NCBI RefSeq assembly: GCF_006546625.1
Contig: NZ_VIAR01000001.1
Span: forward strand, 310,001-374,000
Source: Haloflavibacter putidus
Lineage (GTDB): Bacteria > Bacteroidota > Bacteroidia > Flavobacteriales > Flavobacteriaceae
Direction of reading: 5' to 3'
Length of the DNA stretch: 64,000 bases
Shown one piece after another: positions 35,012 through 53,516 of the stretch (position 1 is its first letter; each line of letters opens with the position of its first letter). The notes under the pieces were generated by a model. It saw only the letters and a program-made list of their open reading frames with translations, did no database searches and was not told the origin of the DNA. Both the position numbers and the translations under genes were made by a program.

Positions 35012-37687
35012 TTAGAGTTTGTACGATAACTTAAACAAAATAGTTCTGGGTTGGATAAAAATATTGGTGTCGCTTACCAAAAACTGGTTAAAGCTGTTTT
35101 CGTTTTTATAACGAACGTCAAAAATATTATCTACGTCAATTTCAAATCCCCACGCGCTGTCTTCTTTGTTGTAATACAACGAAAGGTTGCCAACATCAAA
35201 ACGGTTTGTTTGCTTGGTGTTTAGGTTTTTGTAATAATTATAGGTATAATCTGCCGAAAAAATAAAGTCGTTTAAAAAATCCCAGTCCAAAATAGCATAC
35301 GGACTTATTTGCGTAAATTTATTGGTAGAAATATCCGATTCAAAATTGCTAAAACGCTGTTCCCAGCCTATTTCTATGTTTGGCCAATCTTTAAACCGGG
35401 TTTCGGCTTTTAGGGTGTAACGGTAATTGTTGGATTGGTAGTCGTTTTTTTCTTGGTTTATAATCCGGGAATAATCTGCTAAACTTATGTTTCCGCTAAG
35501 GCTAAACTTATACTTTTTTATTTGTTTGGCAAAAGAGCCCATTAATGCATAGGTGTTTTCTGGCAAACCGGTATAAATTGAAGTATTTACCTGATCTATA
35601 CCTTCTATTTGGGTGGTGTTTCGTATAGATTTTTCGCGCTTGGTATAACTCAGGTTGGCGTTTATAAAAATACCTTTAAACAAATTAAATTGGTGGTAAC
35701 GCAAGTTGGCCGAATGGTAAACTTTGTTTTCTAAATTTTGGTTACCACGGTACAAACGGTTAAAACTAATTAAGCGCAAGCGGTTGGCATATTTTTCTGC
35801 GTTGGAAAAACCGGTTTTTAAGCGGTAGTCCAGTTTGATTTTTTCGGCGGAAGAAAGTTCGTATTCTATATTCAGTTCGGGTAACCAAAGGCTTTTTTGT
35901 TGGTTGGCCACTTCCGTGGAAAATTGGTTAAGCTTCCAAAAATAAGAATGATAGAATATACCGGGTTTAAAGATAAAATTGCCAGCTTTTGCTTTGTACT
36001 GAAACCCAATATAATTATCTACCAACCTAAAAGTGGTGGCATTATTAAAACCGCTATCTTCAAAACTATTTATGCTGCCGTCTTGGAGCAATTGCCGGTC
36101 TAAGGAAGAAAATTTTTCATGAAAAAAATTGACTCCAATTTTAGGATAAATATGGTTAAAATTATTGAGCACCCAATAATGCTTGAGATCCAAATTGGCT
36201 TGATGCCGCTTAGTTGCGGTGTTTTGTAATAAATTATAAAATTCGCCATCTTCCTGAAAAGGAATTAAATTATTAAGTACCGGCCGGTTAAACAGCCAAT
36301 CGTTCTTGTTTTCTTGGTTGTTGTATTTATAAGCCGCAGTTAAGGTAGAAGTATGCTCATACGAAAATTGTTTGTTAAACCTGATTTCTTGGTTTATACT
36401 CAGATTTTTGGGTTTTTGTAAGATGTTGGTACGCAAGCTGTCTGCCGCAGTGATTGAATTCAAATTTTCTGTAGCATCGCCATTGGAGGTTTTTATAAAA
36501 GCATCGTAGGCCACATCTGTATCTTCGTTGGGTTGGTAGCGCAACTTTATCTTGTTTAAACTGAATAAAACCGTGTTGTTGTTGGTGGTTTCCCTAAACT
36601 CGTCTAAATTATCTTGGGTTACATAGGCAATTTCTTTGGTGGTGCGCGTACGGGTTTTGCCTTTATTTACGATACTAAAAGCTTCTAAGCGCAAATCTGG
36701 ACTAATTTGCTGCGACAAGCTGCCGGCGCCAAAATCGTTTTTTTGGTAGATAAAATCTTCTTGGCCCAGAAAACTGGCAAAATCGCTGTTATAAATATCG
36801 CCAAAAGAAGTAGAACCATCCATCATAGCGGCATAACCGCCTTCAAAATCTATATAATCTTTTAGGGTAAACGATTTTTTGCCAATATTATTAAAATCGC
36901 CAATTACATTTATGGCTGTTTTGGGACTGTAATAAAACAAGGTGGGATGGAATAAAAAACGCTCTTTTATACCACCACCGGCTTCTATATCTCCAAAAAC
37001 AAATTCTTTTTTGCCCTCTTTTAGCTTGATGTTAAGCGCCATTTGGTCACTATCACTCAAACCTTTTAAAAAACTAACTTCGTTATAATTGTCTAAAGCT
37101 TCTACTTCTTCTACGGCATCTGCAGGAATATTGTTAACGCCCAATTTAGTGTCTCCGGTAAAAAAGGTTTTGCCCTCTACCATTAATTTGGTTACTTTTT
37201 TGCCGTTTACTTTTACATTGCCTTCCCTATCTACTTCTACGCCGGGCAATTTTTTTAAAACTTCGCGCAGTTTGCGTTCTTCGCCGGTTTTAAACTGCTC
37301 TGTACGGTAGGTTATGGTATCTTCTTTTACAATTACCGCCATTTCTTGTTTTACAATTACCTCTTCTAGGCTTTGGGTACTTTCTTGCAGGCTGTAGTTT
37401 TTTACGCGGTCTTCTGTTAGGTTTAGCGTATCTGTAAATTTAGAAAAACCCATATGCGTAACTTCTATTTTGTAGGTAACGTCTTGGTTTAGCGTTAATT
37501 TATACCGGCCTTGGGTATCTGTGATGGCAAAAGTAATGTCTTGGTTTTTTGCCAACGGACTTGCAATAAGATTGGTATAAGGTATGCTGTTTTGCGTGCT
37601 GTCCAGGACTTTGCCTTCTAAACGCACATTTTGCGCTACTACCGAAGAAAATCCTGTTAGGAAGAACAGGATTGTTAGGGTTTTAAT
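35012..37687 (-). CDS. outer membrane receptor (regulatory-like domain plus TonB-type barrel), the only full-length one in the array
   Basis: A large outer membrane protein. From GTG 37627 the frame encodes 871 aa; the 20 codons upstream encode IKTLTILFFLTGFSSVVAQN, a signal peptide, so translation must begin earlier. No ATG/GTG/TTG is in frame between the preceding stop (37730) and this leader; the ATT at 37685-37687 is the best candidate. Next are a carboxypeptidase-regulatory-like domain (GKVLDSTQNSIPYTNLI), a plug with LREVLKKLPGVEVDREGNVK, and a barrel ending PRTILFKLSYKL. GLPGLI genes commonly sit beside such receptors. Ligand unknown. Confidence 0.7.
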   Translation of the reverse strand: MKTLTILFFLTGFSSVVAQNVRLEGKVLDSTQNSIPYTNLIASPLAKNQDITFAITDTQGRYKLTLNQDVTYKIEVTHMGFSKFTDTLNLTEDRVKNYSLQESTQSLEEVIVKQEMAVIVKEDTITYRTEQFKTGEERKLREVLKKLPGVEVDREGNVKVNGKKVTKLMVEGKTFFTGDTKLGVNNIPADAVEEVEALDNYNEVSFLKGLSDSDQMALNIKLKEGKKEFVFGDIEAGGGIKERFLFHPTLFYYSPKTAINVIGDFNNIGKKSFTLKDYIDFEGGYAAMMDGSTSFGDIYNSDFASFLGQEDFIYQKNDFGAGSLSQQISPDLRLEAFSIVNKGKTRTRTTKEIAYVTQDNLDEFRETTNNNTVLFSLNKIKLRYQPNEDTDVAYDAFIKTSNGDATENLNSITAADSLRTNILQKPKNLSINQEIRFNKQFSYEHTSTLTAAYKYNNQENKNDWLFNRPVLNNLIPFQEDGEFYNLLQNTATKRHQANLDLKHYWVLNNFNHIYPKIGVNFFHEKFSSLDRQLLQDGSINSFEDSGFNNATTFRLVDNYIGFQYKAKAGNFIFKPGIFYHSYFWKLNQFSTEVANQQKSLWLPELNIEYELSSAEKIKLDYRLKTGFSNAEKYANRLRLISFNRLYRGNQNLENKVYHSANLRYHQFNLFKGIFINANLSYTKREKSIRNTTQIEGIDQVNTSIYTGLPENTYALMGSFAKQIKKYKFSLSGNISLADYSRIINQEKNDYQSNNYRYTLKAETRFKDWPNIEIGWEQRFSNFESDISTNKFTQISPYAILDWDFLNDFIFSADYTYNYYKNLNTKQTNRFDVGNLSLYYNKEDSAWGFEIDVDNIFDVRYKNENSFNQFLVSDTNIFIQPRTILFKLSYKL

Positions 37688-37729
37688 TTTATTAAATTTA
37701 GTTTGGATAGGGCTATTGTTTAGTTTCTT

Positions 37730-38491
37730 CTAATCCGGTCTAAAATTGCTGTTCATTTTCCTAAAGATTGCTTGTAATTCTTGATTGGTTATAATTTCGT
37801 ATTTATCATTAGGAATTTTAATTCTTAGCCTATCTATTTCTTCAATAGAAGTTAGGTTAAAACTATAACGCAAACCTTTCTTGGTTTTTTCTTCCGCTTT
37901 AAGCTGCATAATCAAACCGGGGAGACCTCCAAACATTATCGGTCCATATCTAGCCGGAATTTTAGGACAGAACCAAGCTTCTACCTGAGTTTTTACACCA
38001 TTTGCATTCGTAATAACGGCCGTGGCTCTAATAATTTCAAAGTTCTTATAGCTCTTTTTAGAATTGGTGATTTTCCAATTTATTGTTTTTAAAGGATAGT
38101 TAACCAAATATGTCTTTCCTCCAGCATTAACCTCTTTAAAATGATTTTCACAGGCTATATCGGTGTACAGTTTTGTTTCTGCGTCCAAAGATATCAAAAG
38201 TGCTTTTCCTACTTTATCGCTTATGGCATTATCTATTGTTAACCTTTCTATAGGCTTAAAGATTGCTCTTTCAGCATTAAAAACCAAAGAAAAATCTGTA
38301 TTATTCGCACTAGATAACATACGTTTTAACATGCGGTTATAACGTTTATCATTCTGCGTTTTTTCTTGTTTAAAGTTGTCAGCAAATTTATTTTTATCTA
38401 ACTGAAAATCATAAGTTGCTTCATACATTTTCTGGGCTTGTAAAATGTTAACCCATAGCAATAACAAGATAAGTAAAGGTGATTTTTGCAT
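37730..38491 (-). CDS. GLPGLI family protein, array copy 6
   Basis: A 253 aa exported protein, signal peptide ending ILQAQ (about 19). The family motif FGGLPGLIMQLK is near residue 190, preceded by AWFCPKIPARYGP. The earlier part has ETKLYTDIACENHFKEVNAG, a strand pair common to the array. The C-terminus LQAIFRKMNSNFRPD and its DNA are virtually identical to copy 1 (43565-44324), while the rest diverges. It directly precedes the full-length receptor, suggesting they act together. Function of the family is unknown. Confidence 0.85.
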   Translation of the reverse strand: MQKSPLLILLLLWVNILQAQKMYEATYDFQLDKNKFADNFKQEKTQNDKRYNRMLKRMLSSANNTDFSLVFNAERAIFKPIERLTIDNAISDKVGKALLISLDAETKLYTDIACENHFKEVNAGGKTYLVNYPLKTINWKITNSKKSYKNFEIIRATAVITNANGVKTQVEAWFCPKIPARYGPIMFGGLPGLIMQLKAEEKTKKGLRYSFNLTSIEEIDRLRIKIPNDKYEIITNQELQAIFRKMNSNFRPD

Positions 38492-38530
38492 ATTTTTTAA
38501 ATTAAAAAAGTGTGAAGCAACTTAGGTTGG

Positions 38531-38734
38531 TTAATTCATACATTCATTATATGCAATATCCGTAAAAACCCAGTATTGATAATCAGAGCACCCTCCATCT
38601 CTATTACTGCACCAATTTGAAGCAGCGACCCAAGCGAAATCTGCACATTCTTGTTCTTTCTCTTTTGCAATTGCATCTGTACTGTTAAAACCAAACGCCA
38701 AAAATAGCGCGGTTACTGCTAGTAATTTTTTCAT
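38531..38734 (-). CDS. small secreted Cys-containing peptide, array copy 5
   Basis: A 67 aa product. Leader MKKLLAVTALFLAFGFNSTD with AIA cleavage site, then mature KEKEQECADFAWVAASNWC and so on. The mature part of about 44 residues has four Cys and aromatic clusters (YQYW, and Y before the last Cys), ending ECMN. Compared with its paralogues the leader is almost identical while the core differs. It precedes GLPGLI copy 6 by 39 bases. No family is recognised. It could be a secreted effector, signal or ligand of the downstream receptor. Confidence 0.7.
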   Translation of the reverse strand: MKKLLAVTALFLAFGFNSTDAIAKEKEQECADFAWVAASNWCSNRDGGCSDYQYWVFTDIAYNECMN

Positions 38735-38763
38735 AAAAATATAATTTAATTGTTAATAAAAAC

Positions 38764-38779
38764 CAAACTTTAAAAAAAA
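38764..38779 (-). promoter_or_regulatory. degraded promoter leader of peptide copy 5, T(8) tract
   Basis: On the minus strand a run of eight T is followed by AAAGTTTG. Sister copies have TAAGTTTG, so this one has lost the T of the -7 consensus and has the shortest T-run of the four. Confidence 0.45.
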
Positions 38780-38815
38780 CGGTTTTACACAAACAATTTT
38801 ACACTTTAACAGTTT

Positions 38816-38956
38816 TTAGTTGTAGTTAATCGGTAAACTAAAAACTAAGTTCTTAATAAATTTTGGGTTTTGCAAGGCTTTACCTTCTAAACGCACATTT
38901 TGCGCCATTACGGAAGAAAATCCTGTTAGGAAGAACAGGATTGTTAGGGTTTTGAT
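38816..38956 (-). pseudogene. receptor mini-gene A (signal peptide joined to C-terminal strand)
   Basis: In frame it reads IKTLTILFFLTGFSSVMAQ then NVRLEGKALQNPKFIKN and LVFSLPINYN, stop. The first part is the receptor signal peptide and first mature residues (compare the full-length gene at 35012-37687). The rest resembles the last barrel strand of such receptors. About 2.5 kb of plug and barrel is missing, with the reading frame kept across the join. There is no ATG/GTG/TTG at the leader start. It lies between GLPGLI copy 5 and peptide copy 5. Confidence 0.65.
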
Positions 38957-39016
38957 TTTATTAAATTTATTTTGGATAGGTCTTTATTTGTTTTTTTATT
39001 AAACGTCAAATGTTAC

Positions 39017-39742
39017 TTAACGCATAGATTGCATCGCGGTGGAAAAAAGCTTATAGTAATTTTTTAAATTTATTGCTTTACCCTTAGGACGTGTAATTTC
39101 TATAGTATTCTCTTTTTTGTCTATCTCTTCCAGAGTAAATATTCGTTTATCTACCTTTAATTGCACAATTAAACCAGGCAAACCGGCATAAGCTAGCGGA
39201 CCGTGATTGATGGGTACACTTTTGGTAAACCAAGCAATTACTTTCTGTGTTTTTAATTCGCCATCTTTATTATAATAGGTTTTTTCTGTGGTTGCTTTTT
39301 GACAAGCATAGGTTCCTATTGTTTTGGTTTCGTTACTTATCTGCCATTCTAACTCTGGTAAAAAGATTAAATAAGTCTTGCCAAAATCTTCTGTTTGTTG
39401 TAATCTTTCCGCGCAAGCCAAATCGTTATAAAAAATCCCTTGAATTGGCGCAATTGCTATTTTTAAAAATGGACTGTTATTATTTTTAGTCAAAATATTT
39501 TTTCTTTTAAAAATGGATTTATCATTTTTAAAAAGCAACTTATACTCCAGACTATTAGCAATCTCTCTAGCTTTTCTATCTATTTTTCTATATTTTTTGT
39601 ATTGCTGAGGATTTGTCGTCTTCATTTTTGAATAATCTGTAAGTTCTATGTCTAAGGCATAGGTCAACTTACCAGAAGATTGCGAATAAAGTATCTGGCT
39701 AAATAGTACTACTGCCGTTATTACGAATTTTTTATATAGCAT
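39017..39742 (-). CDS. GLPGLI family protein, array copy 5
   Basis: A 241 aa exported protein; signal peptide MLYKKFVITAVVLFSQILYSQ. The family motif YAGLPGLIVQLKVDK is near residue 187, preceded by AWFTKSVPINHGP. It has a conserved ACAERLQQTEDFGK stretch. It stands alone in its cassette: no peptide gene precedes it, only a truncated receptor remnant. Unlike copies 1 and 6 its C-terminus is short (KLFSTAMQSMR) and resembles copies 3 and 4. Confidence 0.84.
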   Translation of the reverse strand: MLYKKFVITAVVLFSQILYSQSSGKLTYALDIELTDYSKMKTTNPQQYKKYRKIDRKAREIANSLEYKLLFKNDKSIFKRKNILTKNNNSPFLKIAIAPIQGIFYNDLACAERLQQTEDFGKTYLIFLPELEWQISNETKTIGTYACQKATTEKTYYNKDGELKTQKVIAWFTKSVPINHGPLAYAGLPGLIVQLKVDKRIFTLEEIDKKENTIEITRPKGKAINLKNYYKLFSTAMQSMR

Positions 39743-39799
39743 TAAAAATAAAAGAATTACTGCTTCTTACAAATATGGTCGTATCTCTCTTTAATTGAT

Positions 39800-39855
39800 T
39801 TTCATAACACAAACTAAAATTTAAGTTCTTAATAAATTTTGGGTTTTGCAAGTTG
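39800..39855 (-). pseudogene. receptor remnant B (C-terminal strand only)
   Basis: Reads LQNPKFIKNLNFSLCYENQ in frame; no signal peptide precedes it and no peptide leader follows. The cassette boundary here has lost both. It is in the gap between GLPGLI copies 4 and 5. Confidence 0.5.
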
Positions 39856-39868
39856 GTGGTCGACTTTT

Positions 39869-40612
39869 CTACTCTTCAATAAATTTTTGGGTCAATCTCG
39901 AGATTAAATCTTCGTATTCCTTTTGGGTCATGGCTTCTTTATCCTCTATTTTTTCGACTTTGAAGTTTTCACTTTGCTCAATTTTCTTGGCCGTTACTAC
40001 TGCTCCTTTTAAATGAACTTCTGCTATTAAGCCCGGCAAGCCCATAAAAATATCTGGCCCCGATTGTAAAGGTATGGATGGGATAAACCAAGCTTCTACC
40101 TCTAAGTTCTCATTAGTTACTGGATAATAGTAATTACCTGTTGCTTTTCTGGCAGTGAAACCCAAAATCTTTTTATGGTCTTCTTTTATAACCCAATTAA
40201 AATTATAATAATCTCTTTTTACTGTAAAATCTTGACTTACCAGGTTTTTAATAAAAGTGATTTTTTTGTCTTTATGATTGGCGTAAACTTCTGTATTAAA
40301 AGAAGTAAATTGTTTCACCGCTTTATAATAAAGCGATTCAATTCGTGAATCACTTTCTATCATTAAGGTCTTTTCTTCTTTAAAATACGAATTTTCTTTA
40401 TTGCTAAAAAGTAAATAATTTACATCTTTTGAACGGTTAATAATTTTTTCAGTAAAATGTTTAGATCTTTCATTTAAACTATCTATAGGGCGACGTAATT
40501 TTATTTCAGAAATTCCGTAAATTATTTTAAAAGAAGTCTGTGCATTTAGGTTCTGGTTAAAACAACAAATAGATACACAGACCACTAAAATTTTAAAAAA
40601 AATTTTTAACAT
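39869..40612 (-). CDS. GLPGLI family protein, array copy 4
   Basis: A 247 aa exported protein. The start is taken at ATG 40612 (MLKIFFKILVVCVSICCFNQ), because an upstream start at 40639 would overlap the peptide gene. The family motif FMGLPGLIAEVHLKG is near residue 190, preceded by AWFIPSIPLQSGP. It is the most divergent copy outside the motif. The preceding peptide ends five bases upstream. Function unknown. Confidence 0.82.
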   Translation of the reverse strand: MLKIFFKILVVCVSICCFNQNLNAQTSFKIIYGISEIKLRRPIDSLNERSKHFTEKIINRSKDVNYLLFSNKENSYFKEEKTLMIESDSRIESLYYKAVKQFTSFNTEVYANHKDKKITFIKNLVSQDFTVKRDYYNFNWVIKEDHKKILGFTARKATGNYYYPVTNENLEVEAWFIPSIPLQSGPDIFMGLPGLIAEVHLKGAVVTAKKIEQSENFKVEKIEDKEAMTQKEYEDLISRLTQKFIEE

Positions 40613-40617
40613 TAAAT

Positions 40618-40815
40618 TTACCCTCGATATATTTGACATTCAAGTACGAAGTTATTAAAGAGATCAATATTATCTAAATTTATACCACCATAATGATCAT
40701 GGAATATCTCGTGATAAGTAGCAAAACAACTTTGCTCCTGTTCTCTGGCATCTGCGCCTAAACTTGTAAAAGAAAATGCTGTAAATAATACAGCAACTGC
40801 TAGTAATTTCTTCAT
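40618..40815 (-). CDS. small secreted Cys-containing peptide, array copy 4
   Basis: A 65 aa product. The leader is a variant (MKKLLAVAVLFTAFSFTSLG then ADA) and the mature part REQEQSCFATYHEIFHDHYG and on ends LECQIYRG, with two Cys. It keeps the EQ(E/S)C start and a Cys near the end but lacks the AW pair of its sisters, so it is the most diverged core. It lies five bases before GLPGLI copy 4. Confidence 0.62.
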   Translation of the reverse strand: MKKLLAVAVLFTAFSFTSLGADAREQEQSCFATYHEIFHDHYGGINLDNIDLFNNFVLECQIYRG

Positions 40816-40844
40816 AATTTTAAAATTTAATTGTTAATAAAACC

Positions 40845-40865
40845 CAAACTTATATAAAAAAAAAA
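40845..40865 (-). promoter_or_regulatory. promoter leader of peptide copy 4: T(10) tract and TAAGTTTG
   Basis: On the minus strand ten T, then ATA, then TAAGTTTG, an exact TAnnTTTG box, and about 30 bases to the ATG. A TTG lies further upstream, so T-run length would set the -33 to -7 spacing. Confidence 0.5.
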
Positions 40866-40899
40866 CGGTTTTACATAAACAATTTTACACTTTAACAGT

Positions 40900-41039
40900 T
40901 TGTAGTAGTTAATCGGCAAACTAAGGTTCAAGTTCTTAATAATTTTTGGGTTTTGCAAGGCTTTGCCTTCTAAACGCACATTTTGCGCCATAACGGAAGA
41001 AAATCCTGTTAGGAAGAACAGGATTGTTAGGGTTTTGAT
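40900..41039 (-). pseudogene. receptor mini-gene C
   Basis: Same join as mini-gene A: signal IKTLTILFFLTGFSSVMAQ then NVRLEGKALQNPKIIKN and a strand. The stop codon of copy A (TAA after NYN) is lost here, so the frame reads on into the T-run. It lies between GLPGLI copy 3 and peptide copy 4. Confidence 0.55.
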
Positions 41040-41077
41040 TTTATTACATTTAGTTTGGATAGGGCTTTAGGTATTTT

Positions 41078-41815
41078 CTAATTTTGTTTAGCATTTTGCA
41101 TTGCACCTTTTGCCATGGCGTTAAAGTCATCAAATGATATTTTTTGACCTTTTACTGGCTTTTCTATATTTAAATTTTTGGACTTCTTAATTCTCGTAGC
41201 GTAGTAACGTTCATTAACAGTAGAAATTTCTAAAATTAAACCAGGCAAACCATTAAAGCCTAAAGGCCCGAAATTTAAAGGTATTTCCGGAGCGTACCAA
41301 GCTTCTACTTTTAAGTAGCTTTTGTTATTATCGTTATTAACCGTCCAACTACCAACTGCTTTTTTACAAATGTATCCTAAAATTTCTTTTTTTTCTTCTT
41401 TCAGCTTCCAGCCTCTTTTACCGAAATCTACTAAAAAATCACGACCGAAAGCATCTACCTGCCAATAATTCTCCTCTGTATTAAGATTAGTATAATAATT
41501 ACCTTTGAAGGGTCCAAAAGCGGCAATATTTCTGCCGTCTCTTTTTAAAATTTCCTCTACTTCAAATAAAGCACTTTGATTGGTAATAAGTAATTTGTAC
41601 TTTAATCTTTTTGCTGCCTCTTTACGTTTTTTTTCAATGGCGTAATATTCTTCAAATAATTTAGGATTCTCTTTTTTTAAAGCTTTACCTTTTTTTCCAT
41701 CTAATGAAGAAATTATTTTCTTTTTATAGGTGATTTTTAACCCTTCGTTTTGAGCATTACTCGCACAAGATACAAATAGCAACGAAAACAATAAATATAT
41801 ATAATTAAAACTCAT
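41078..41815 (-). CDS. GLPGLI family protein, array copy 3
   Basis: A 245 aa exported protein. The N-terminus MSFNYIYLLFSLLFVSCA contains Cys in a lipobox-like place, so it may be a lipoprotein, unlike most copies. The family motif FNGLPGLILEISTV is near residue 197, preceded by AWYAPEIPLNFGP. The region YKLLITNQSALFEVEEI is shared with copies 2 and 5. It is followed by receptor remnant C. Function unknown. Confidence 0.84.
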   Translation of the reverse strand: MSFNYIYLLFSLLFVSCASNAQNEGLKITYKKKIISSLDGKKGKALKKENPKLFEEYYAIEKKRKEAAKRLKYKLLITNQSALFEVEEILKRDGRNIAAFGPFKGNYYTNLNTEENYWQVDAFGRDFLVDFGKRGWKLKEEKKEILGYICKKAVGSWTVNNDNNKSYLKVEAWYAPEIPLNFGPLGFNGLPGLILEISTVNERYYATRIKKSKNLNIEKPVKGQKISFDDFNAMAKGAMQNAKQN

Positions 41816-41873
41816 TTTGATTTTTTAAAGCTACCCCAAGCTTAATAGAACCTAAGGCAGCTTGATTAATAAT

Positions 41874-42062
41874 TTAGAGGCAATGATCATTATAATATTC
41901 ATTCATATAATGCCATTCTAAATATTCCCATCCTTCACCCATTACAGTGCCATACCTCCAAGCTTTGTCAAAACATGTTTCTTCTTTCTCTTTTGCAATT
42001 GCATCTGTACTGTTAAAACCAAACGCCAAAAATAGCGCGGTTACTGCTAGTAATTTCTTCAT
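41874..42062 (-). CDS. small secreted Cys-containing peptide, array copy 3
   Basis: A 62 aa product with leader MKKLLAVTALFLAFGFNSTD, cleavage after AIA, mature part KEKEETCFDKAWRYGTVMG and a C-terminal NDHCL: two Cys. It keeps the C-x4-AW pattern and an aromatic cluster (WHYMNEYY) before the last Cys. It lies 58 bases before GLPGLI copy 3. Confidence 0.68.
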   Translation of the reverse strand: MKKLLAVTALFLAFGFNSTDAIAKEKEETCFDKAWRYGTVMGEGWEYLEWHYMNEYYNDHCL

Positions 42063-42091
42063 AATTTAAAAATTTAATTGTTAATAAAAAC

Positions 42092-42113
42092 CAAACTTAT
42101 AAAAAAAAAAAAA
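42092..42113 (-). promoter_or_regulatory. promoter leader of peptide copy 3: T(13) tract and TAAGTTTG
   Basis: Thirteen T next to an exact TAAGTTTG box (minus strand). This is the longest T-run of the four copies; the upstream TTG seen in sister copies is mutated here. Confidence 0.5.
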
Positions 42114-42171
42114 CGGTTTTACATAATTAAATCTGCACTTTAACAGTTTTTATTTGCACTTAATCGGGAAA

Positions 42172-42300
42172 CTAAAAAACCAAGTTCTTAATAAATTTTG
42201 GGGTTTGCAAGGCTTTAGCTTCTAAACGAACATTTTGTGCTATTACGGAAGAAAATCCTGTTAGAAAGAACAGGATTGTCAGGGTTGCTTTGATATGCAT
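42172..42300 (-). CDS. receptor mini-gene D, with ATG: 42 aa secreted micro-protein
   Basis: The only mini-gene with a proper start: ATG at 42300 gives MHIKATLTILFFLTGFSSVI, then AQ, then NVRLEAKALQTPKFIKN and LVF, stop TAG (42172-42174). Full-length receptor leader bases read ATAAAATT where this has ATGCATATC, so the other copies appear to have lost the ATG by a small deletion. It could still be translated and exported as a short peptide; otherwise it is a pseudogene. It starts 14 bases after GLPGLI copy 2. Confidence 0.45.
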   Translation of the reverse strand: MHIKATLTILFFLTGFSSVIAQNVRLEAKALQTPKFIKNLVF

Positions 42301-42314
42301 TAAATTTCTGGTAA

Positions 42315-43064
42315 TCAATTATTATTACTCATATTAAAAAATTTCGTATTAAGTTCCTTCATTATCTCCTTAAATTCCATTTCAGAAACTTCTCGCCCTT
42401 TTCGTGGTTTTTCTATTTTTGAGTGCTGTGGCGACAAATCTAAGTCTGTCACGTAAAACTTAGTGCCCGCAGCTACTTTTAATTCTATAATTAGACCAGG
42501 TAAACCAAAATAACCTTTAGGGCCAAAACTAACAGGTATTTCTGGCGTAAACCAAGCTACAATATCTTTAGTTTTATAAGCTTTTGATCTGGCATCGTAA
42601 ATTTTCTTTTTACTAATTGCTTTTATGCATTTAAAACCTGAGATAGTTTTACTCTCTTTTGTTATTTCCCAATCTGCTTTTTTGCGATTTACCAAAAAGA
42701 AAGAGCCGCTAACATTTACCTGCTCTAAAGTCTTCTCCGTTTCCAAATTAGTATAATTAATGCCTTCCATATTTTTTAAACCAGCGTACATACTATTTTT
42801 AAGTAAGATTTCTTGTTGTTCAAAAATAGCTTCATGTTCCCAAAATAATAGTTCATAAGAGAATTTTTCTATGGTTTCTGCCATTTTTTTGGCTTCCCTT
42901 AAAAAGTGTTCGTTTTCCTCAGGATTATTTTGCTTTAGACTAGTGAACATTGTGTCTTGAATGTCCATTTTTTTTCTATATACAACTTTACCACTTTGTT
43001 GAGACCAAGCAGCTGTAAAACTAAAAACTAACAAAAAAATTAATACAATATTTCTATTTATCAT
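42315..43064 (-). CDS. GLPGLI family protein, array copy 2
   Basis: A 249 aa exported protein; signal peptide MINRNIVLIFLLVFSFTAAW then SQ. The family motif YFGLPGLIIELKVA is near residue 200, preceded by AWFTPEIPVSFGP. The nonsense-broken peptide copy 2 lies 49 bases upstream, and mini-gene D follows. The gene itself is intact. Function unknown. Confidence 0.85.
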   Translation of the reverse strand: MINRNIVLIFLLVFSFTAAWSQQSGKVVYRKKMDIQDTMFTSLKQNNPEENEHFLREAKKMAETIEKFSYELLFWEHEAIFEQQEILLKNSMYAGLKNMEGINYTNLETEKTLEQVNVSGSFFLVNRKKADWEITKESKTISGFKCIKAISKKKIYDARSKAYKTKDIVAWFTPEIPVSFGPKGYFGLPGLIIELKVAAGTKFYVTDLDLSPQHSKIEKPRKGREVSEMEFKEIMKELNTKFFNMSNNN

Positions 43065-43113
43065 TTATTCAAATAATTATGCCCATAAAACAAAAGTTTT
43101 ACGGTCTATGAAT

Positions 43114-43302
43114 TTACCTGCAATTTGCCATATAATATGCGTCTGTGTACCAATAAGGATTACCTCCATACATAGCCGACATTAACGTTCCAAAATCCCA
43201 AGCTGCCGCTACACAATCTTGTTATTTCTCTTTTGCAATTGCATCTGTACTGTTAAAACCAAACGCTAAAAATAGCGCGGTTACTGCTAGTAATTTTTTC
43301 AT
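43114..43302 (-). pseudogene. secreted peptide copy 2 with nonsense codon
   Basis: The leader MKKLLAVTALFLAFGFNSTD, AIA and KEK is intact. Then TAA replaces the GAA seen in sister copies. Downstream the core continues in frame as QDCVAAAWDFGTLM and ends YYMANCR, stop TAA at 43114-43116, with the family pattern C-x4-AW and a last Cys. One base change (GAA to TAA) separates it from a normal gene, so it is a recent loss or a sequencing error. Confidence 0.75.
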
Positions 43303-43331
43303 AATTTAAAAATTTAATTGTTAATAAAAAC

Positions 43332-43351
43332 CAAACTTATAAAAAAAAAAA
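43332..43351 (-). promoter_or_regulatory. promoter leader of peptide copy 2: T(11) tract and TAAGTTTG
   Basis: On the minus strand eleven T, then A, then TAAGTTTG (-7 consensus). A TTG lies about 26 bases before the box, so T-run length decides the -33/-7 spacing. Confidence 0.5.
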
Positions 43352-43400
43352 CGGTTTTACATAAACAATTTTACACTTTAACAGTTTTTAGTTGTAGTTA

Positions 43401-43529
43401 ATCGGGAAATTAAGGTTCAAGTTCTTAATAATTTTTGGGTTTTGCAAGGCTTTAGCTTCTAAGCGCAGGTTTTAAAGTGTTACCGAAAGAAATATGGTTA
43501 GGAAGAACAGGATTGTCAGGGTTTTGATT
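43401..43529 (-). pseudogene. receptor remnant E, degenerate
   Basis: Reads IKTLTILFFLTIFLSVTL then a stop; the signal peptide is corrupted after LFFLT. The C-terminal strand follows beyond the stop. It lies between GLPGLI copy 1 and peptide copy 2. Confidence 0.5.
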
Positions 43530-43564
43530 TTATTAAATTTAGGTTGGATAGGGCTATTATTCTT

Positions 43565-44324
43565 CTAATCCGGTCTAAAATTGCTGTTCATTTTTCTAAA
43601 GATTGCTTGTAATTCACTATCTGTTATAACTTCTAAATCTTTTAAAGGTATTTGCAGTGATAAATCATTTTTTAGCGTAATTTTTTCTGCTTTCATAGAA
43701 TAATGTATCCCGGCTTGTAGCTCCGTAACGCTTATATCTGTTATCATTCCTGGCAAGTCATTAAATAAGCCTGGACCGAAATTAGGCGGTAAGTCTGGTG
43801 AGAACCAAGCAACCAACTTTGTTTTCCCGCCCTTATTATTATCTACCATAGCTTCTGCTTTAAATAATTCATAGTCGGACGTAATTCTGGTTTCCTTTTT
43901 TATATTCCAATCTATATCTTTAGGAGGTAAAGAAACTAATTTATGAATACCTGCACTATTGATTTCTTTATAAAAAATTTCGCAGTTTAGATCAAAATAC
44001 ATGGGGTCATAAAGGCCTAATCGTGGCAAAAGCCCTTTTTTTTAATGAATTATTTTCTTCCCCTCTCTTTAAACTAGCAATTGGCTGGAATAATGAAATA
44101 CCATCTTCTATTTTTAAGGAGAATTTTGTATTATTAGAAGCATCTATCATTTTGGAAAAAACAGGTAAGTATTTTATTCTATCGTTCGAAACCTTTTTTT
44201 CAATTTCGTTCAACATTTCTTCTTTATTTATTTTAATGGAATAAATTACCTCATAGCTTTTATCTTGACCATAAATGGTAATGTTGCTTAAAATAATGAA
44301 AGTAAAAACAATTATATTTTTCAT
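43565..44324 (-). pseudogene. GLPGLI family protein, array copy 1, frameshifted
   Basis: Two pieces of one gene. The first runs from ATG 44324 (MKNIIVFTFIILSNITIYGQ) to a stop at 44007; the second continues in another frame from about 44029 to the stop at 43565. The shift lies in a run of eight A (minus strand) near 44035-44042. Deleting one A joins SLKKGLLPRLGLYDPMYFD, matching copy 6 (KVGKALLISLDAETKLYTD). The motif is FNDLPGMITDIS, an imperfect GLPGLI. The start overlaps the stop of peptide copy 1 (ATGA). Confidence 0.7.
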
Positions 44325-44560
44325 TGGAGAGTAAAAGTTATGAGGTTTTTAGTATTATTAATATCTTTTAAACAAGCTTCGTACAAGCCATTAGTAGTGT
44401 TCCAATATTCATAATCGGAGCATTCAAACACAGCGCACATAGTGCTGGCAATTTCCCAAGCTTGCATTGCACATTCTTGCTCTTTCTCTTTTGCAATTGC
44501 ATCTGTACTGTTAAAACCAAACGCCAAAAATAGCGCGGTTACTGCTAGTAATTTTTTCAT
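44321..44560 (-). CDS. small secreted Cys-containing peptide, array copy 1
   Basis: A 79 aa product: leader MKKLLAVTALFLAFGFNSTD, AIA site, mature KEKEQECAMQAWEIASTMC and on, with four Cys, and a C-terminal extension (LKDINNTKNLITFTLQ) that sister copies lack. Its TGA overlaps the GLPGLI ATG by four bases, which makes coupled translation likely. It is the first gene of the array, and its upstream DNA is not the repeated leader of the other copies. Confidence 0.68.
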   Translation of the reverse strand: MKKLLAVTALFLAFGFNSTDAIAKEKEQECAMQAWEIASTMCAVFECSDYEYWNTTNGLYEACLKDINNTKNLITFTLQ

Positions 44561-44712: not shown

Positions 44713-46560
44713 CTAATTCTCATATACATTGTTTTCCCTTTCTACATCTGCCATAAGTTGCGATGGGTCTATTTCTATTTTAGAAATACTCTCTTTGCTT
44801 GTATCTAAAGAAAGCGTATAAGTTGGCATTGCCCAAGGCCAGTCTTTTTGGATATTTTCTGCGCCCGGTTTGGTAAAATACAACATCCGTAAAGGAATAT
44901 AATAGTTTTTACTGCTACCATCTTTATAGCTTACTTTTACATCTAACGGCATTGGCATTAAACCTTTGCGTTTTAGTTGCACTTGTGTCTTGCCTTCCTT
45001 TTCTGTAACCTTTTCTATGGTATAATCTATTGTGTTGGTGGTTTGCGTCCAATCTGTCAAATACCAACTTAAATTAGCGCCAGACACTTTTTCTGCCACA
45101 CGAATAAAATCGTTTGGGGTTGGGTGTTTAAACTTCCATTCGTCATAATAACGGTGTAAGGTTTTAGAAAGGTTTTCTTGCCCAATAATATAGCCCAATT
45201 GTCCTAAGAAAACGGCTCCTTTAGAATAAGCAGCCAAACCATAAGCTTGGTTTAAGTTATAACGGTCTGCGTGGGTGCTTTGCGGTTGTTCGTTACCGGA
45301 ATTTGCCAAATATGTATAACCACGATAGCTTCCGGCCAACGGATTTTCTTTTTCTTCGTTCATCACCTCATTCATAGCTAAACTAGAAATGTAGGTGGTA
45401 AAACCTTCGTCCATCCATTCGTGTTTGGTTTCGTTGGTTGCCAATACAAATTGAAACCAGGTATGTGCTAATTCGTGCGCGGTTACGCCTACTAAACTTC
45501 CAAATTTCCGGTTTCCGGTAATTAAAGTAGACATAGCATATTCCATACCGCCATCACCACCTTGTATAACAGAATATTGCTTATATGGATAGGGCCCAAT
45601 ATGTTCCGTAAAGAAATCTAACAAAGCTTCTGTTTTAGGTTGTAATTTTTTCCAATTTTCCGTAAAGTTATTTTCTTTTTCGTACGAGGGATTGTCTTTA
45701 TATAAGAAGTGCAAAGTTGTACCATCTTTTGCTTTGTGGATGTCGTGCACAAAATCTGGATCTGCTGCCCAAGTAAAATCGTGTACTTTTGGTGCTTTAA
45801 AATGCCAGGTTAATTTTTTGCCGCGATGTTTTACTCTGGTGCCTTTATCTTGGTAACCGTGACCAATTTTATTAGGGTTTTGCAAATAACCGGTTCCGCC
45901 AAGAACATAATCTTTATCGATGGTTATTTTTACATCAAAATCTCCCCAAACGCCGTGAAATTCTCTACCAATATAAGGCGTAGCGTGCCAGCCTTCAAAA
46001 TCGTATTCTGCTAACTTCGGGTACCACTGCGTCATAGAAAGAGCAACACCTTCTGCGCTATTTCTTCCCGATCTTCTTATTTGTTTGGGAACTTGGCCGT
46101 TAAAATCCATTTTGAAAGTGGTTTTTTCTCCCGGCAAAATGGGTTTATCTAAACTTACTTGTAAAATGGTTCCTACGGTTTTATGATTTACCTGCTTGCC
46201 GTCTTGTTCTAATTTATCTATTTTTAGATAACCAACTTCGTTTGGTTTTAGGCCTGCAATTCTGCTTCCTACCCTAGAATCTGGATCTTGAATGGTTCTA
46301 GAACGTACATCCATTTCGCTACCGGGTTGAAAAGCATTAAAGTATAAATGATAAAAAACTTGTTGCAAAGTGTCTGGCGAGTTGTTGGTATATACCAGTT
46401 CTTGCTTACCGGTGTATTGATAGTTTTTTACATTCATATCTACTTCCATCGTATAATCTACGTGTTGTTGCCAGTAGGAAGTATTGTTTTGTGCAAAGGT
46501 CACGGAACAGATAAAAAATAAAAGTCCAACTTGACAAGTTTGCTTTAGGTGTTTACACAT
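44713..46560 (-). CDS. M1 family metallopeptidase (aminopeptidase N-like)
   Basis: A 615 aa exported zinc peptidase. Signal peptide MCKHLKQTCQVGLLFFICSV. The zinc motif VTAHELAHTWF (about 364) with the distal Glu in WMDEGFTTYIS (about 385) is complete, and GGDGGMEYAMSTLITG (about 344) carries the substrate-binding GGMEY-like block. It has an N-terminal beta-domain and lacks the long C-terminal ERAP-type helical domain. It is intact, transcribed alone and ends at a stem-loop. Confidence 0.9.
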   Translation of the reverse strand: MCKHLKQTCQVGLLFFICSVTFAQNNTSYWQQHVDYTMEVDMNVKNYQYTGKQELVYTNNSPDTLQQVFYHLYFNAFQPGSEMDVRSRTIQDPDSRVGSRIAGLKPNEVGYLKIDKLEQDGKQVNHKTVGTILQVSLDKPILPGEKTTFKMDFNGQVPKQIRRSGRNSAEGVALSMTQWYPKLAEYDFEGWHATPYIGREFHGVWGDFDVKITIDKDYVLGGTGYLQNPNKIGHGYQDKGTRVKHRGKKLTWHFKAPKVHDFTWAADPDFVHDIHKAKDGTTLHFLYKDNPSYEKENNFTENWKKLQPKTEALLDFFTEHIGPYPYKQYSVIQGGDGGMEYAMSTLITGNRKFGSLVGVTAHELAHTWFQFVLATNETKHEWMDEGFTTYISSLAMNEVMNEEKENPLAGSYRGYTYLANSGNEQPQSTHADRYNLNQAYGLAAYSKGAVFLGQLGYIIGQENLSKTLHRYYDEWKFKHPTPNDFIRVAEKVSGANLSWYLTDWTQTTNTIDYTIEKVTEKEGKTQVQLKRKGLMPMPLDVKVSYKDGSSKNYYIPLRMLYFTKPGAENIQKDWPWAMPTYTLSLDTSKESISKIEIDPSQLMADVERENNVYEN

Positions 46561-46587
46561 GAAAATTTAATTTTTGATTAATAAAAA

Positions 46588-46646
46588 AAGGTGCTCTAAA
46601 AATATAAAGTTAAGACTTAAAAAGCTACTTTAAAATAGAACACCTT
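46588..46646 (-). terminator. terminator of the S8 peptidase gene
   Basis: AAGGTGCTCTA and TAGAACACCTT form an 11-bp stem with one mismatch; T-residues follow on the minus strand. Confidence 0.6.
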
Positions 46647-46670
46647 GGGTTTTAATTTTTATAGTTTGGC

Positions 46671-48347
46671 TTACTTCATTTTATCTGCATAAATAAGTGC
46701 GTTGTATAAATTTACCATTTTGCCAGAAACAGATAGTTCTGAAAATGGTTTAATATCGTCTGCACTACCGCCAACCATTACGTCTGCTTGTGAGCTTAAA
46801 CCGCTTTTCATAATAACTTCTTTAACTTGAGCGGCACTAAGTTTTGGATAATATGAACGTATTATTGCTGCTACGCCGGCAACTGCTGGAGAAGCCATAG
46901 AAGTACCTTGCAAATACTCGTATTGATCTAATGGCGTGGTAGACCAAATTTTGGTTCCCGGAGCAAATACATCTACATTAGTTTTTCCGTAGTTAGAAAA
47001 GCCTGCAACCAAACCAGAGCCATATTCATAATTTAAGGCACCAACGGTTAAGAAGTTATCGGCATATTCTTGCGGAGTTTTGGTAGATTGATCGTTAGGA
47101 TAAATATCTGTTTCATCCATATTTAAAGCATCGTTTCCGGCGGCATTTACGATTAATACATCGTTGTCTGCCGCATATTTGATTGCGTCACGAACCCAAT
47201 CTGGATGTGTTGAAAAATACTTACCAAAACTAGTGTTTATAACTTTTGCGCCATTATCTACCGCATAGCGTATAGCCAAAGCAATATCTTTGTCGTACTC
47301 ATCTCCATCCGGTACTGCTCTAACAGCCATAATTTTTACATTATTGGCAACGCCGTTCATACCAACATCGTTATTGCGTTCTGCAGCAATAATTCCTGCT
47401 ACGTGTGTACCGTGCTTGGCGTCTTCCTTTTTAGGATCTGGTCCGTCTACATCATTATTACCGTAATCTGTATCTGTAATATCGTCTACATCGTCTCCCA
47501 CTACCGCACGACCATCTAAGTCTTTATTTAAATGCGAATCCAGGCGACTTTGAAAATAATCCATCCCGCCACTTAATTGTTTTTTAGCATCGTCTAAGTC
47601 GCCAATATTGTTCATTATATTCAACAAAAAGGCTTTAGATTGTTGCAATTTTTCTGTGTTGGCTTCCATATTTTCCAAGTCTTCTTGGGAAAAATCTTCA
47701 CCAATTTCATCAGAAACCAATTGTATAGAAGTTTCCAACTGCTGTTGCAACTGTCCGTAATAATTTTTATTTCTAGTTACTTCGCTATACTCTTTGTCGT
47801 ATTCTTTTTTGGCACGCTGGTATAAGGCAAATTCTTCTTTATCTGAAGCTTTTATGCTTGCTTCGCTTTTACCTTTATATTTTGGCTCCAATTTTTTAAG
47901 AATTCTAACAAACTCGAGATTTTCTTTAACGGCGTCTCCTAAAAAGTTCCAGCCGTGAATATCGTCTACATAACCGTTGTTATCATCGTCTATACCGTTA
48001 TTTGGTATTTCGTCTTGATTTGTCCAGATAACGTTTTTTAGATCTTCGTGTTCAATATCTATCCCGCTGTCTATCACGCCAACTATTACGGTTTTACCTT
48101 CGTAGTCTTTTATAATTTCGTCATAAGCTTTTTGCACGCTCATTCCCGGTATGGTATCGTTTACCAAGTCTGCGCCGCCCCAACCTTTTAATTCATTATC
48201 TGTTAAATCTGAAGTTTTTAAAGGTTGCTGATCTATATTTTCTATAGGTGTTGAGGTAATGGTAGGGCCAGAAGTTCCACAGCCGGTAGCCAAAATTGCC
48301 GCAATAAAAGCAGCAATGACGGTAGGTTTAAAAAATGTTCTTTTCAT
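46671..48347 (-). CDS. S8 family subtilisin-like lipoprotein peptidase
   Basis: A 558 aa exported serine protease; the N-terminus FIAAILATGCGTSG has a lipobox. The catalytic triad is visible: Asp in GVIDSGIDIEHED (about 93), His in AKHGTHVAGIIAA (about 315) and Ser in GTSMASPAVAG (about 485). Between Asp and His is a long insert of roughly 220 residues (about 105-300), Glu/Lys/Gln-rich and probably coiled coil, unlike short bacterial subtilisins. The upstream MBL gene is nine bases away, so they share an operon. Confidence 0.87.
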   Translation of the reverse strand: MKRTFFKPTVIAAFIAAILATGCGTSGPTITSTPIENIDQQPLKTSDLTDNELKGWGGADLVNDTIPGMSVQKAYDEIIKDYEGKTVIVGVIDSGIDIEHEDLKNVIWTNQDEIPNNGIDDDNNGYVDDIHGWNFLGDAVKENLEFVRILKKLEPKYKGKSEASIKASDKEEFALYQRAKKEYDKEYSEVTRNKNYYGQLQQQLETSIQLVSDEIGEDFSQEDLENMEANTEKLQQSKAFLLNIMNNIGDLDDAKKQLSGGMDYFQSRLDSHLNKDLDGRAVVGDDVDDITDTDYGNNDVDGPDPKKEDAKHGTHVAGIIAAERNNDVGMNGVANNVKIMAVRAVPDGDEYDKDIALAIRYAVDNGAKVINTSFGKYFSTHPDWVRDAIKYAADNDVLIVNAAGNDALNMDETDIYPNDQSTKTPQEYADNFLTVGALNYEYGSGLVAGFSNYGKTNVDVFAPGTKIWSTTPLDQYEYLQGTSMASPAVAGVAAIIRSYYPKLSAAQVKEVIMKSGLSSQADVMVGGSADDIKPFSELSVSGKMVNLYNALIYADKMK

Positions 48348-48356
48348 CGGTTTATA

Positions 48357-49220: not shown

Positions 49221-49396
49221 TACAAAGAATTTAGGTTTTACGCTGCGCGCTGCAAATTATAAAATACAATAATTACTTGCACTCTTTTAATGCGGTTTTA
49301 ACAGTACATTCCGTAAAAAACGAAAAAAATTCGAATTCTGTAAAAAAAATGTTTCTTTTTATTAAAAAGAAGTTATTTTGCGATAAAAATTACCGT

Positions 49397-52089: not shown

Positions 52090-52216
52090 TTGTCTCCTTT
52101 TTTAAAGTATTAACGTATTAAAATATAAACTTTGTTAAAAATTTATTAACAAATTATTTTAATGTTAAAATAAAAGCTTTTATATTGCCTGCAAACTAAT
52201 AAAATTTAAACCTATT

Positions 52217-52759: not shown

Positions 52760-52813
52760 AAACTATTTTGTTTCCCTTACGGGGAATAGAATTGGCTTTT
52801 AAAATTAAAATAG

Positions 52814-52849
52814 AACCTTTCCGGAAAATTACTTTTTGGAAAGGTTTTT
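52814..52849 (+). terminator. terminator of the lipocalin-like gene
   Basis: AACCTTTCC and GGAAAGGTT stem with loop GGAAAATTACTTTTT. A near-identical copy lies at 53517-53553. Confidence 0.7.
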
Positions 52850-53503: not shown

Positions 53504-53516
53504 AGGTAAGTCTTAA

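Follow-up and report, generated by a model that had tools for sequence, protein, structure and literature searches.

Tandem peptide-GLPGLI cassettes ahead of a TonB-dependent-transporter-like receptor in Haloflavibacter putidus, with receptor 5' stubs as candidate recombination handles

In this work, we analyzed a window of 64,000 nucleotides from Haloflavibacter putidus (contig NZ_VIAR01000001.1), in which a tandem gene array occupies the minus strand from 44560 to 35012. It holds five peptide genes, six GLPGLI genes, four 5' stubs of a receptor gene and one full receptor gene (Table 1). The original prediction had proposed such an array and is confirmed here with small corrections, the repeats being far beyond chance (best E 2e-123). 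The single full receptor is present, and the array content bears out that only the peptide and GLPGLI parts have multiplied; four of the five peptide genes are intact and the remaining one is interrupted by an early in-frame TAA, five of the six GLPGLI genes are intact ORFs and the sixth is frameshifted, and four of the five proposed receptor remnants are real, the other being a 42-bp spacer element without receptor sequence. The expected four-base overlap between a peptide and a GLPGLI gene is seen at 44321-44324; the two genes are separated by 39-58 nt in three cassettes, and the GLPGLI start called at 40639 falls within a peptide gene, an alternative ATG at 40612 leaving a gap of 5 nt. The cassettes have in common a near-identical block (receptor stub, spacer and peptide signal sequence), and vary in the peptide cores and GLPGLI proteins. 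The genome contains seven GLPGLI matches, six of them in the array; the leader pattern was found five times, with 0 mismatches each and always in the array, and the reversed pattern, used as a control with up to three mismatches permitted, gave two matches. For the 42-bp element (LQNPKFIKNLNFSL), descent from the 3' part of the receptor gene was considered but gained no support, no convincing match beyond the window array being found among the loci searched. PADLOC matched none of ten proteins to a defence system.

Table 1. Features of the array, in minus-strand order
Feature	Coordinates	Strand	State	Description	Match
Peptide 1	44321..44560	(-)	intact, 79 aa	core ECAMQAWEIASTMC...C; leader common to peptides 2, 3 and 5	
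GLPGLI 1	43565..44324	(-)	frameshifted	ORFs 44007-44324 and 43565-44029	
Receptor 5' stub 1	43450..43560	(-)			82.6% over 190 bp, GLPGLI tail included
Peptide 2	43114..43302	(-)	broken, TAA after codon 26	core QDCVAAAWDFG...C beyond the stop	
GLPGLI 2	42315..43064	(-)	intact, 249 aa		142 bits
Receptor 5' stub 2	42213..42307	(-)			84.2% to receptor 5' end
Peptide 3	41874..42062	(-)	intact, 62 aa	core TCFDKAWRYG...C	
GLPGLI 3	41078..41815	(-)	intact, 245 aa		136.5 bits
Receptor 5' stub 3	40961..41066	(-)			94.3% to receptor 5' end
Peptide 4	40618..40815	(-)	intact, 65 aa	core SCFATYHEIFHDHYGGINLDN...C; leader more divergent	
GLPGLI 4	39869..40639	(-)	intact		128.2 bits
Spacer element, 42 bp	39811..39852	(-)		no receptor stub	
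GLPGLI 5	39017..39742	(-)	intact	no peptide in front	139.6 bits
Receptor 5' stub 4	38878..38996	(-)			90.9% to receptor 5' end
Peptide 5	38531..38734	(-)	intact, 67 aa	core ECADFAWVAASNWC...C	
GLPGLI 6	37730..38491	(-)	intact	adjoins full receptor	121.6 bits
Full receptor	35012..37627	(-)		TonB-dependent-transporter-like	

The receptor resembles TonB-dependent transporters in its predicted structure (pLDDT 87.1, pTM 0.76): all 50 Foldseek matches listed were transporters of this type (best E 1.1e-15), with TM-scores by query length of only 0.27-0.40. In Pfam, Plug scored under its cut-off (14.7 vs 23.9 bits) and CarbopepD_reg_2 over it (40.5 vs 32.2), and a profile search of PDB sequences gave only two short chains that match the N-terminal part, one from a TonB-dependent receptor and one from a SusC homolog. 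An EEVIV-like motif ahead of the plug is a candidate TonB box. The open frame, with its signal peptide, reaches upstream to about 37729, and no ATG, GTG or TTG lies ahead of the signal. Five Mesonia loci carry receptors 71-95% identical to that of the window. The four stubs correspond to the receptor 5' end at 83-94% DNA identity; they had been taken for collapsed copies, but the look of random decay is absent, as those found keep the 5' end and are much younger than the genes between them.

All five intact GLPGLI ORFs belong to TIGR01200 (121.6-142 bits against a curated cut-off of 50). Members of this family matched in 81 of 100 sampled Flavobacteriaceae genomes, and the literature searched gives no function for them. 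The predicted fold of GLPGLI 6 lies near the N-domain of PNGase F-II and LolA in Foldseek (7zgn, E 3.0e-8, TM to PNGase F-II 0.43-0.45; LolA-type chains 3buu and 9tp6, E 1.5e-4 and 4.2e-4), the TM-scores of the LolA-type chains being low (0.19-0.31); peptide and GLPGLI were queried together as one chain, and TM by query length is lower for that reason. The model may resemble LolA-type carriers, with significant E-values and low TM-scores. MucB, of the LolA superfamily, is also among its fold matches. Unlike that superfamily, the five GLPGLI proteins matched no LolA family at E 0.1 in either Pfam or NCBIfam, and their cargo would be a small soluble peptide rather than a lipoprotein.

Known small-peptide families in Pfam and NCBIfam, of which NVEALA is one, were matched over the curated cut-off by 0/4 window peptides and 0/9 relatives, all hits lying below threshold. 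By inspection rather than motif search, we noticed no pattern common to the cores except the cysteines. The cores are net negative in 56 of 60 cases, with a median charge of -5. Charge complementarity between core and partner GLPGLI was rejected as a candidate (rho -0.15, p 0.26); partner GLPGLI proteins are more basic than long GLPGLI proteins (p 1e-8) and not more basic than short ones lacking a peptide (p 0.59). The Bacteroidota -7 promoter motif is TANNTTTG. As a shared promoter upstream of the peptide genes, TANNTTTG was not supported, being found in 8/60 against a shuffled mean of 3.6 and maximum of 8 (for the row of window 42315, the upstream region came from another copy that has the same leader).

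The gene order recurs in Mesonia, in Psychroflexus and in further Flavobacteriaceae. A two-cysteine secreted peptide lies upstream of 48/127 GLPGLI ORFs and 0/360 other ORFs (200 aa or longer) in the same loci, by a strict filter that was defined after the peptides had been seen and that leaves 79/127 without a peptide. The core type of peptide 4, judged by eye, is also present in M. mobilis, M. hippocampi and one Bacteroidia MAG, and that of peptide 5 in M. algae and M. aestuariivivens. Same-type cores are under purifying selection as measured by dN/dS, which was computable for 10 of 17 pairs and stayed under 0.65 in each of these. That peptide, GLPGLI protein and receptor belong together, as the original prediction held, is upheld by this recurrence, specificity and selection; co-occurrence and purifying selection had been named beforehand as points on which the peptide-GLPGLI link could fall, and it stood on both. 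The cassettes are absent from the 30 best-scoring GLPGLI family loci, mostly of the long type (about 270-330 aa), where no two-cysteine peptide lies within 200 nt upstream; these share with the array the same proteins (TIGR01200/PF09697) and the order GLPGLI-receptor. A phylum-wide draw of 61 genomes gave an upstream small secreted ORF in 0/28 loci examined, 22 of them from other families (25 of the 28 had a recognisable GLPGLI ORF). Since many GLPGLI-receptor pairs lack a peptide, GLPGLI has a wider base role. Conversely, P. maritimus (L098) has peptide and receptor, with GLPGLI absent from the locus examined, and intact peptides lie beside broken GLPGLI genes at window 44321, L082 919 and L073 3228.

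The age of the parts differs sharply. Stub plus spacer diverge by a JC distance of 0.078-0.198 (10 comparisons), and in the two within-window pairs tested dS was 0.06 for leaders, 1.06-1.26 for cores and 1.33-1.63 for GLPGLI genes. Across 60 cassettes from 27 genomes, core similarity correlates with GLPGLI similarity (r 0.57) and leader similarity less so (r 0.22); with near-copies removed (54 cassettes) the values were 0.40 and 0.15, and in both sets re-pairing within genomes reached the observed core-GLPGLI value in 0/5000 trials. Among between-genome pairs with a GLPGLI similarity of at least 0.3, 18 of 21, which are not independent, exceed the 95th percentile of core similarity for all 1715 pairs. 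This set started from 47 GLPGLI genes with a small ORF upstream; six were removed, five as ORF fusions or not leader-bearing peptides (L078 3664, L083 273, L085 3617, L088 3506, L091 5215) and one as a broken GLPGLI distant from its peptide (L082 1435). Adding the window's two broken cassettes, together with 17 from the family that came from 11 of 20 stretches, gave 60. Neither this set nor the 48/127 and 0/360 counts include loci duplicating named ones (L051-L053, L056, L057, L059, L061) or L054, which lies at a contig end. The pairing is not absolute, because in L088 and L092 unrelated cores precede the same GLPGLI (identical across 236 aligned residues), and the covariation can arise from linkage alone.

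In related bacteria, the cassettes appear, by sequence comparison, to have changed places. P. gondwanensis and P. lacisalsi, whose receptors are 95.6% identical, carry two GLPGLI modules with stub and receptor positions swapped (1049 bp at 99.2%; 1246 bp at 97.4%), and a further module (929 bp at 89.0%) lies ahead of a stub in P. longus and of the receptor in P. sediminis. In a sister Mesonia the receptor is 94.5% identical as far as the signal peptide, and the GLPGLI directly ahead is only distantly related. That these Psychroflexus modules precede a stub in one of the two species compared and the full receptor in the other makes the stubs look like recombination handles. Most of the genomes are drafts, and assembly could be misled by the exact 60-86 bp repeats present at the Psychroflexus junctions.

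Taken together, we tentatively read the locus, at not quite an even chance, as a set of exchangeable cassettes of a peptide and its periplasmic partner that serve one TonB-dependent transporter and recombine through constant handles. Each cassette would encode a short peptide, consisting of a Sec-type signal for export into the periplasm and a core of some 40 residues that varies and usually has two cysteines, together with a matched GLPGLI protein of predicted carrier-like fold; the one conserved transporter at the array end would serve them all. New or stored cassettes might recombine through two constant handles. One would be the leader of the peptide gene with the region upstream of it; the other would be the initial 100-240 bp of the receptor gene, left as a stub in displaced cassettes. 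Most likely, we infer, GLPGLI would act as a periplasmic carrier or guard that binds its own peptide and hands it to the shared transporter for release, the variable cores serving competition or recognition among related bacteria. Several observations count against this reading: the non-absolute pairing, the possible effect of linkage, the P. maritimus locus without GLPGLI, the GLPGLI-receptor pairs without peptide, and the low TM-scores. Against export in particular, TonB-dependent transporters usually import.

A precedent for export is Oar/PopC of Myxococcus, in which a TonB-dependent transporter is required to secrete a protein that first accumulates in the periplasm; the part of that account drawn on here concerns one protease cargo and mentions no GLPGLI partner or cassettes (PMC6434023). 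The array also shares features with the orphan modules of CDI/Rhs systems, namely displaced modules that lie in tandem and have matched partner genes; a fragment of the conserved main gene is retained in many of them, so that homologous recombination could redeploy a stored module, according to the relevant part of PMC4927057. Displaced modules of the Psychroflexus relatives (draft genomes) likewise retain main-gene sequence and appear able to swap with the active one. Whereas the CDI/Rhs fragment belongs, in that same part of the source, to the toxin-carrying protein itself (PMC4927057), the array fragment comes from a separate downstream transporter, and neither the array ORFs nor the ten proteins scanned include a CdiA or Rhs exoprotein. 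The pneumococcal blp locus, as far as the excerpt of PMC4860687 describes it, is similar in its leader and variable mature peptide, several peptide genes, excess immunity genes, single shared transporter and fluid gene content, but has double-glycine leaders and an ABC transporter in place of Sec-like signals, GLPGLI and a TonB-dependent transporter. Neither class II bacteriocin mark was found, there being no GG in the four window peptide leaders and no ABC transporter among the array proteins. No description of peptide-GLPGLI cassettes was found in the literature searched. Whether the array represents, for Flavobacteriaceae, a so far undescribed class of system for secretion or recognition, where a single TonB-dependent transporter would be served by a cassette library, 5' stubs would act as docking sites and recombination would move stored modules next to the transporter, we regard as evenly balanced.

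It is possible, though on balance unlikely, that the cassettes encode toxin and immunity, the peptide acting as a bacteriocin of narrow spectrum, GLPGLI protecting against it in the periplasm and the transporter being the exit or entry door. By analogy with CDI/Rhs arrays or pneumococcal blp, the stubs and surplus GLPGLI genes might then, with the same reserve, be displaced modules retained for immunity. The variable core with matched partner, the many partner ORFs without a peptide by the strict filter, the displaced modules bearing transporter stubs and the turnover among sister strains would all fit, as would the bacteriocin complexes of the TonB-dependent transporters Cir and FpvA among the receptor's Foldseek matches listed. 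However, intact peptides stand beside broken GLPGLI genes or, in P. maritimus, none; GLPGLI genes are widespread without such peptides; and the cores are acidic, unlike typical pore-forming bacteriocins. We consider it quite improbable that the peptides are secreted to bind a metal, cofactor or nutrient and return through the transporter to GLPGLI, their diversity blocking theft by neighbours. The receptor's closest folds among the matches listed include siderophore, cobalamin, PQQ and copper transporters, and the GLPGLI model may resemble a ligand-binding LolA-type fold, but the cores lack a noticed common pattern beyond cysteines, and it is the receptor, the part needed to recognise every complex, that is conserved while the peptides vary. 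Simple tandem duplication and later decay of the receptor copies, with peptide and GLPGLI linked by neighbourhood only, would explain the pseudogenes (peptide 2, GLPGLI 1), covariation through linkage and the one clear GLPGLI/core mismatch, yet is the least probable reading, because the shared block is near-identical whereas cores and GLPGLI genes are old (dS >1 against JC 0.08-0.20 for the stubs) and mutually unlike, the stubs keep the 5' end, the order is the same in other genera and same-type cores have low dN/dS.

GLPGLI, common yet unexplained in Flavobacteriaceae, here gains candidates for both its ligand and its partner transporter, as well as a predicted carrier-like fold, and its role can therefore be tested directly. 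Were the stubs recombination handles, modules would be switched with a docking sequence taken from the transporter gene, not from a toxin gene. The array would also offer unstudied peptides and a possible system of competition or recognition among marine Bacteroidota.

As minor observations, peptide 5 is predicted to form two helices, GLPGLI 1 has a related degenerate copy in the sister strain (47-62% amino acid identity), and GLPGLI 4 is 76% identical to a GLPGLI protein of M. algae.

The array combines genes for small secreted peptides, genes of the GLPGLI family (TIGR01200/PF09697) and parts of a TonB-dependent-transporter-like receptor. Of its five peptide genes, four are intact and one is interrupted by a TAA after codon 26; of its six GLPGLI genes, five are intact and one is frameshifted. 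The receptor is present once in full and four times as a 5' stub, and a further spacer piece lacks any stub. The original prediction of five peptide genes, six GLPGLI genes and one full receptor is thus borne out, whereas its five receptor remnants come down to four stubs, the fifth place holding only the spacer. Within the 2.92 Mb draft genome, a pattern search for the peptide leader (signal sequence) gave five matches, every one inside the array, which also contains six of the seven GLPGLI matches.

Features and loci discussed in the text
Feature	Location	Strand
Peptide/GLPGLI/receptor array	window 44560 to 35012	minus
Loci with a different secreted protein before GLPGLI	L101, L104, L106, L110, L118, L120, L121, L125, L128	
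Three tandem paralogous small genes	window 9747-11718	
Fourth similar small gene	window 52862-53503	
M1 and S8 peptidases	window 44713-55523	
Receptor 5' end	window 37600-37730	
Apparent GLPGLI-peptide fusion	L088:2979-3314	

Four of the cassettes share a block of 291-353 aligned bp (80-88% identity between cassettes) comprising the receptor 5' stub, the spacer, the upstream region and the beginning of the peptide gene; the first cassette has only its last 80-110 bp. Similarity drops beyond the leader, with GLPGLI proteins sharing 24-34% identity with the first sequence compared. Stub plus spacer, with no obvious coding content, diverge by a JC distance of 0.078-0.198 (10 comparisons, four of them against the receptor's own 5' end). 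Computed for two window pairs, dS came to 0.06 for leaders, 1.06-1.26 for cores (the variable part after the leader) and 1.33-1.63 for GLPGLI genes, the leader of peptide 4 being more divergent than the others. Simple tandem duplication predicts stub divergence at least equal to that of neighboring synonymous sites and is disfavored, as the stubs lie far below core and GLPGLI dS. Because of this difference, the sequences are best read as old modules within a young or continually homogenized frame. We favor exchangeable peptide and GLPGLI cassettes that would serve one transporter, with the stubs as putative recombination handles.

Such peptides also lie beside GLPGLI genes in other genomes, as the original prediction required. 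A peptide profile hit 11 places in four of 16 genomes of the genus; ten adjoin a GLPGLI gene, whether intact or broken, and the remaining one lies where a contig ends. The profile missed two further peptides in M. hippocampi. A receptor search of named genomes gave 28 loci, and cassettes with receptor 5' stubs and a single terminal full receptor were found in M. aestuariivivens (L073) and in Psychroflexus (L083, L088, L092), and probably in L082 too. In 61 pooled loci, chosen via receptor or GLPGLI, a small ORF (45-110 aa, hydrophobic N-terminus, at least two cysteines; criteria set after the peptides had been seen) preceded 48 of 127 GLPGLI ORFs and none of 360 others (56 receptors, 304 other ORFs). 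Such a peptide occurred in 11 of 20 family stretches, most of them selected for their shorter GLPGLI types, in none of the 30 best-scoring family GLPGLI loci within 200 nt, and in none of 28 phylum-wide loci, of which 22 came from other families. Two M. mobilis contigs, C16 (start of L053) and C7 (end of L054), both terminate near a peptide gene; short-read assembly therefore probably fragments or collapses arrays of this kind, and counts of them are likely to be too low.

Core and GLPGLI similarity covary across 60 cassettes from 27 genomes (r 0.57; 0.40 in 54 non-redundant cassettes), whereas leader and GLPGLI similarity correlate at only 0.22 and 0.15, respectively. Re-pairing cores and GLPGLI within genomes reached the observed value in 0 of 5000 trials in both sets. 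Among pairs from different genomes, 21 had a GLPGLI similarity of at least 0.3, and in 18 of these core similarity exceeded the 95th percentile. Starting from the cores, 24 had a good match elsewhere, and for 17 of them the nearest GLPGLI was the matching one. Counter-cases exist: the GLPGLI proteins of P. gondwanensis (L088, position 5102) and P. lacisalsi (L092, position 1087) show no difference over 236 residues, yet the cores before them are unrelated, and the former is also mismatched with P. salarius (L090, position 2203). Linkage could produce covariation too, although the leader, as closely linked, shows little.

Apparent exchange of modules (GLPGLI plus the receptor signal-peptide stretch) is seen in Psychroflexus. 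The receptors of P. gondwanensis and P. lacisalsi share 95.6% identity, and (i) the receptor-proximal module of the former (GLPGLI 5102-5836 and receptor signal peptide) lies in front of a stub in the latter (1049 bp, 99.2%), while (ii) the receptor-proximal module of P. lacisalsi (GLPGLI 4972-5685) lies in front of a stub in P. gondwanensis (1246 bp, 97.4%). As the receptor signal peptides move with the swapped modules, the junction falls no earlier than the end of the signal-peptide coding stretch. Likewise, the module in front of the P. longus stub stands in front of the full receptor in P. sediminis (89.0% over 929 bp, with 88.7% between the receptors). Assembly error is a possible source of these swaps, since exact stub-receptor matches are as long as 75-86 bp in the swapped pair, and 60 bp long in P. 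longus, all draft genomes.

A dus and an FtsX-like gene lie downstream of the receptor locus in five named Mesonia loci, the window and the Psychroflexus MAG L076, and were not seen beside the receptors of L094 and L097, which are more distant. The sister strain, uncultured Mesonia 2-781 (L061, identical to L071), is 94.5% identical to the window over 1454 bp beginning within the receptor signal peptide; no leader copy was found in its locus, and the GLPGLI immediately upstream of its receptor is only 25-31% identical to those of the window. To the left of the array stand peptidases in the window, and LepA and another receptor in L061, which suggests rearrangement. At its 5' end the receptor has an open frame across the signal peptide, and no ATG, GTG or TTG precedes that signal in four of 12 receptors checked (window, M. 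algae, M. aestuariivivens and M. mobilis; L072, L073 and L074 included). ATT and ATA are among their candidate starts, and these receptors may use a rare start codon or be the outcome of recombination at the junction.

Peptide 5 core and GLPGLI 6, modeled as one chain from 50 aligned sequences (pLDDT 86.7, pTM 0.78), were predicted as two helices and a confident mixed fold, respectively. Foldseek matched the GLPGLI model to PNGase F-II structures (7zgn, E 3e-8; low TM-scores, 0.43-0.45), whose N-terminal domain is GLPGLI-like, to LolA-superfamily chains (best E 1.5e-4; low TM-scores, 0.19-0.31), to ependymin-related proteins and, weakly, to MucB. All 50 matches listed for the receptor model were TonB-dependent transporters, with modest TM-scores. 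We propose that the Sec-type leader would take the peptide into the periplasm, where GLPGLI, with its own signal peptide and carrier-like predicted fold, may hold it, the single conserved transporter providing the outer-membrane step common to all cassettes. Oar/PopC offers a precedent for export (PMC6434023). Turnover and matched variation suggest a role in competition or recognition among relatives.

The strongest rival is a toxin-immunity system; against it, peptides are intact beside a broken GLPGLI in three places, the fetched P. maritimus locus has no GLPGLI, and the cores are acidic. A scavenging peptide taken up again is possible but fits less well, the receptor being conserved whereas the peptides vary. 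The array layout works similarly to that of CDI/Rhs orphan modules, many of which retain homology to the main gene (PMC4927057), and of the pneumococcal blp region (PMC4860687). It belongs to neither type, as the array yielded no CdiA/Rhs protein, no double-glycine leader and no ABC transporter. Among the titles returned by a full-text literature search for GLPGLI none concerned peptides, and the Pfam and TIGR names returned nothing.

Median length over the 60 cores is 42.5 residues, and 56 of them carry a negative net charge (median -5). Exactly two cysteines occur in 43, three to five in 12 and fewer than two in five, with a median first-to-last gap of 31 residues (55 cores). Core types are shared between genera, preceded by different leaders, such as the DVHDSW type of M. 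aestuariivivens and P. longus. Core dN/dS was 0.13-0.64 in the ten computable of 17 same-type pairs, dS being saturated in five and zero in two. No Pfam or NCBIfam family exceeded the cut-off for four window peptides or nine relatives.

In L073 a palindrome, GACCTTAT...ATAAGGTC, stands no more than about 45 nt ahead of three peptide starts (544, 2147 and 4880) and is a possible operator. L066, L067, L068, L130 and L135 have a second sort of peptide linked to GLPGLI, in which the leader reads MKN(V/L)FF(A/T)L(A/T)F and the cores look strand-like, with two cysteines in some. A different, related-looking secreted protein of 113-128 aa immediately precedes GLPGLI in nine of the 30 best-scoring family loci. 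The apparent fusion in L088, a GLPGLI signal region joined to a two-cysteine peptide core, is perhaps a recombination product. Elsewhere in the window, the three tandem small secreted or lipoprotein-like genes and the fourth similar one have a KD...GxWxxxN pattern in common, judged by eye.
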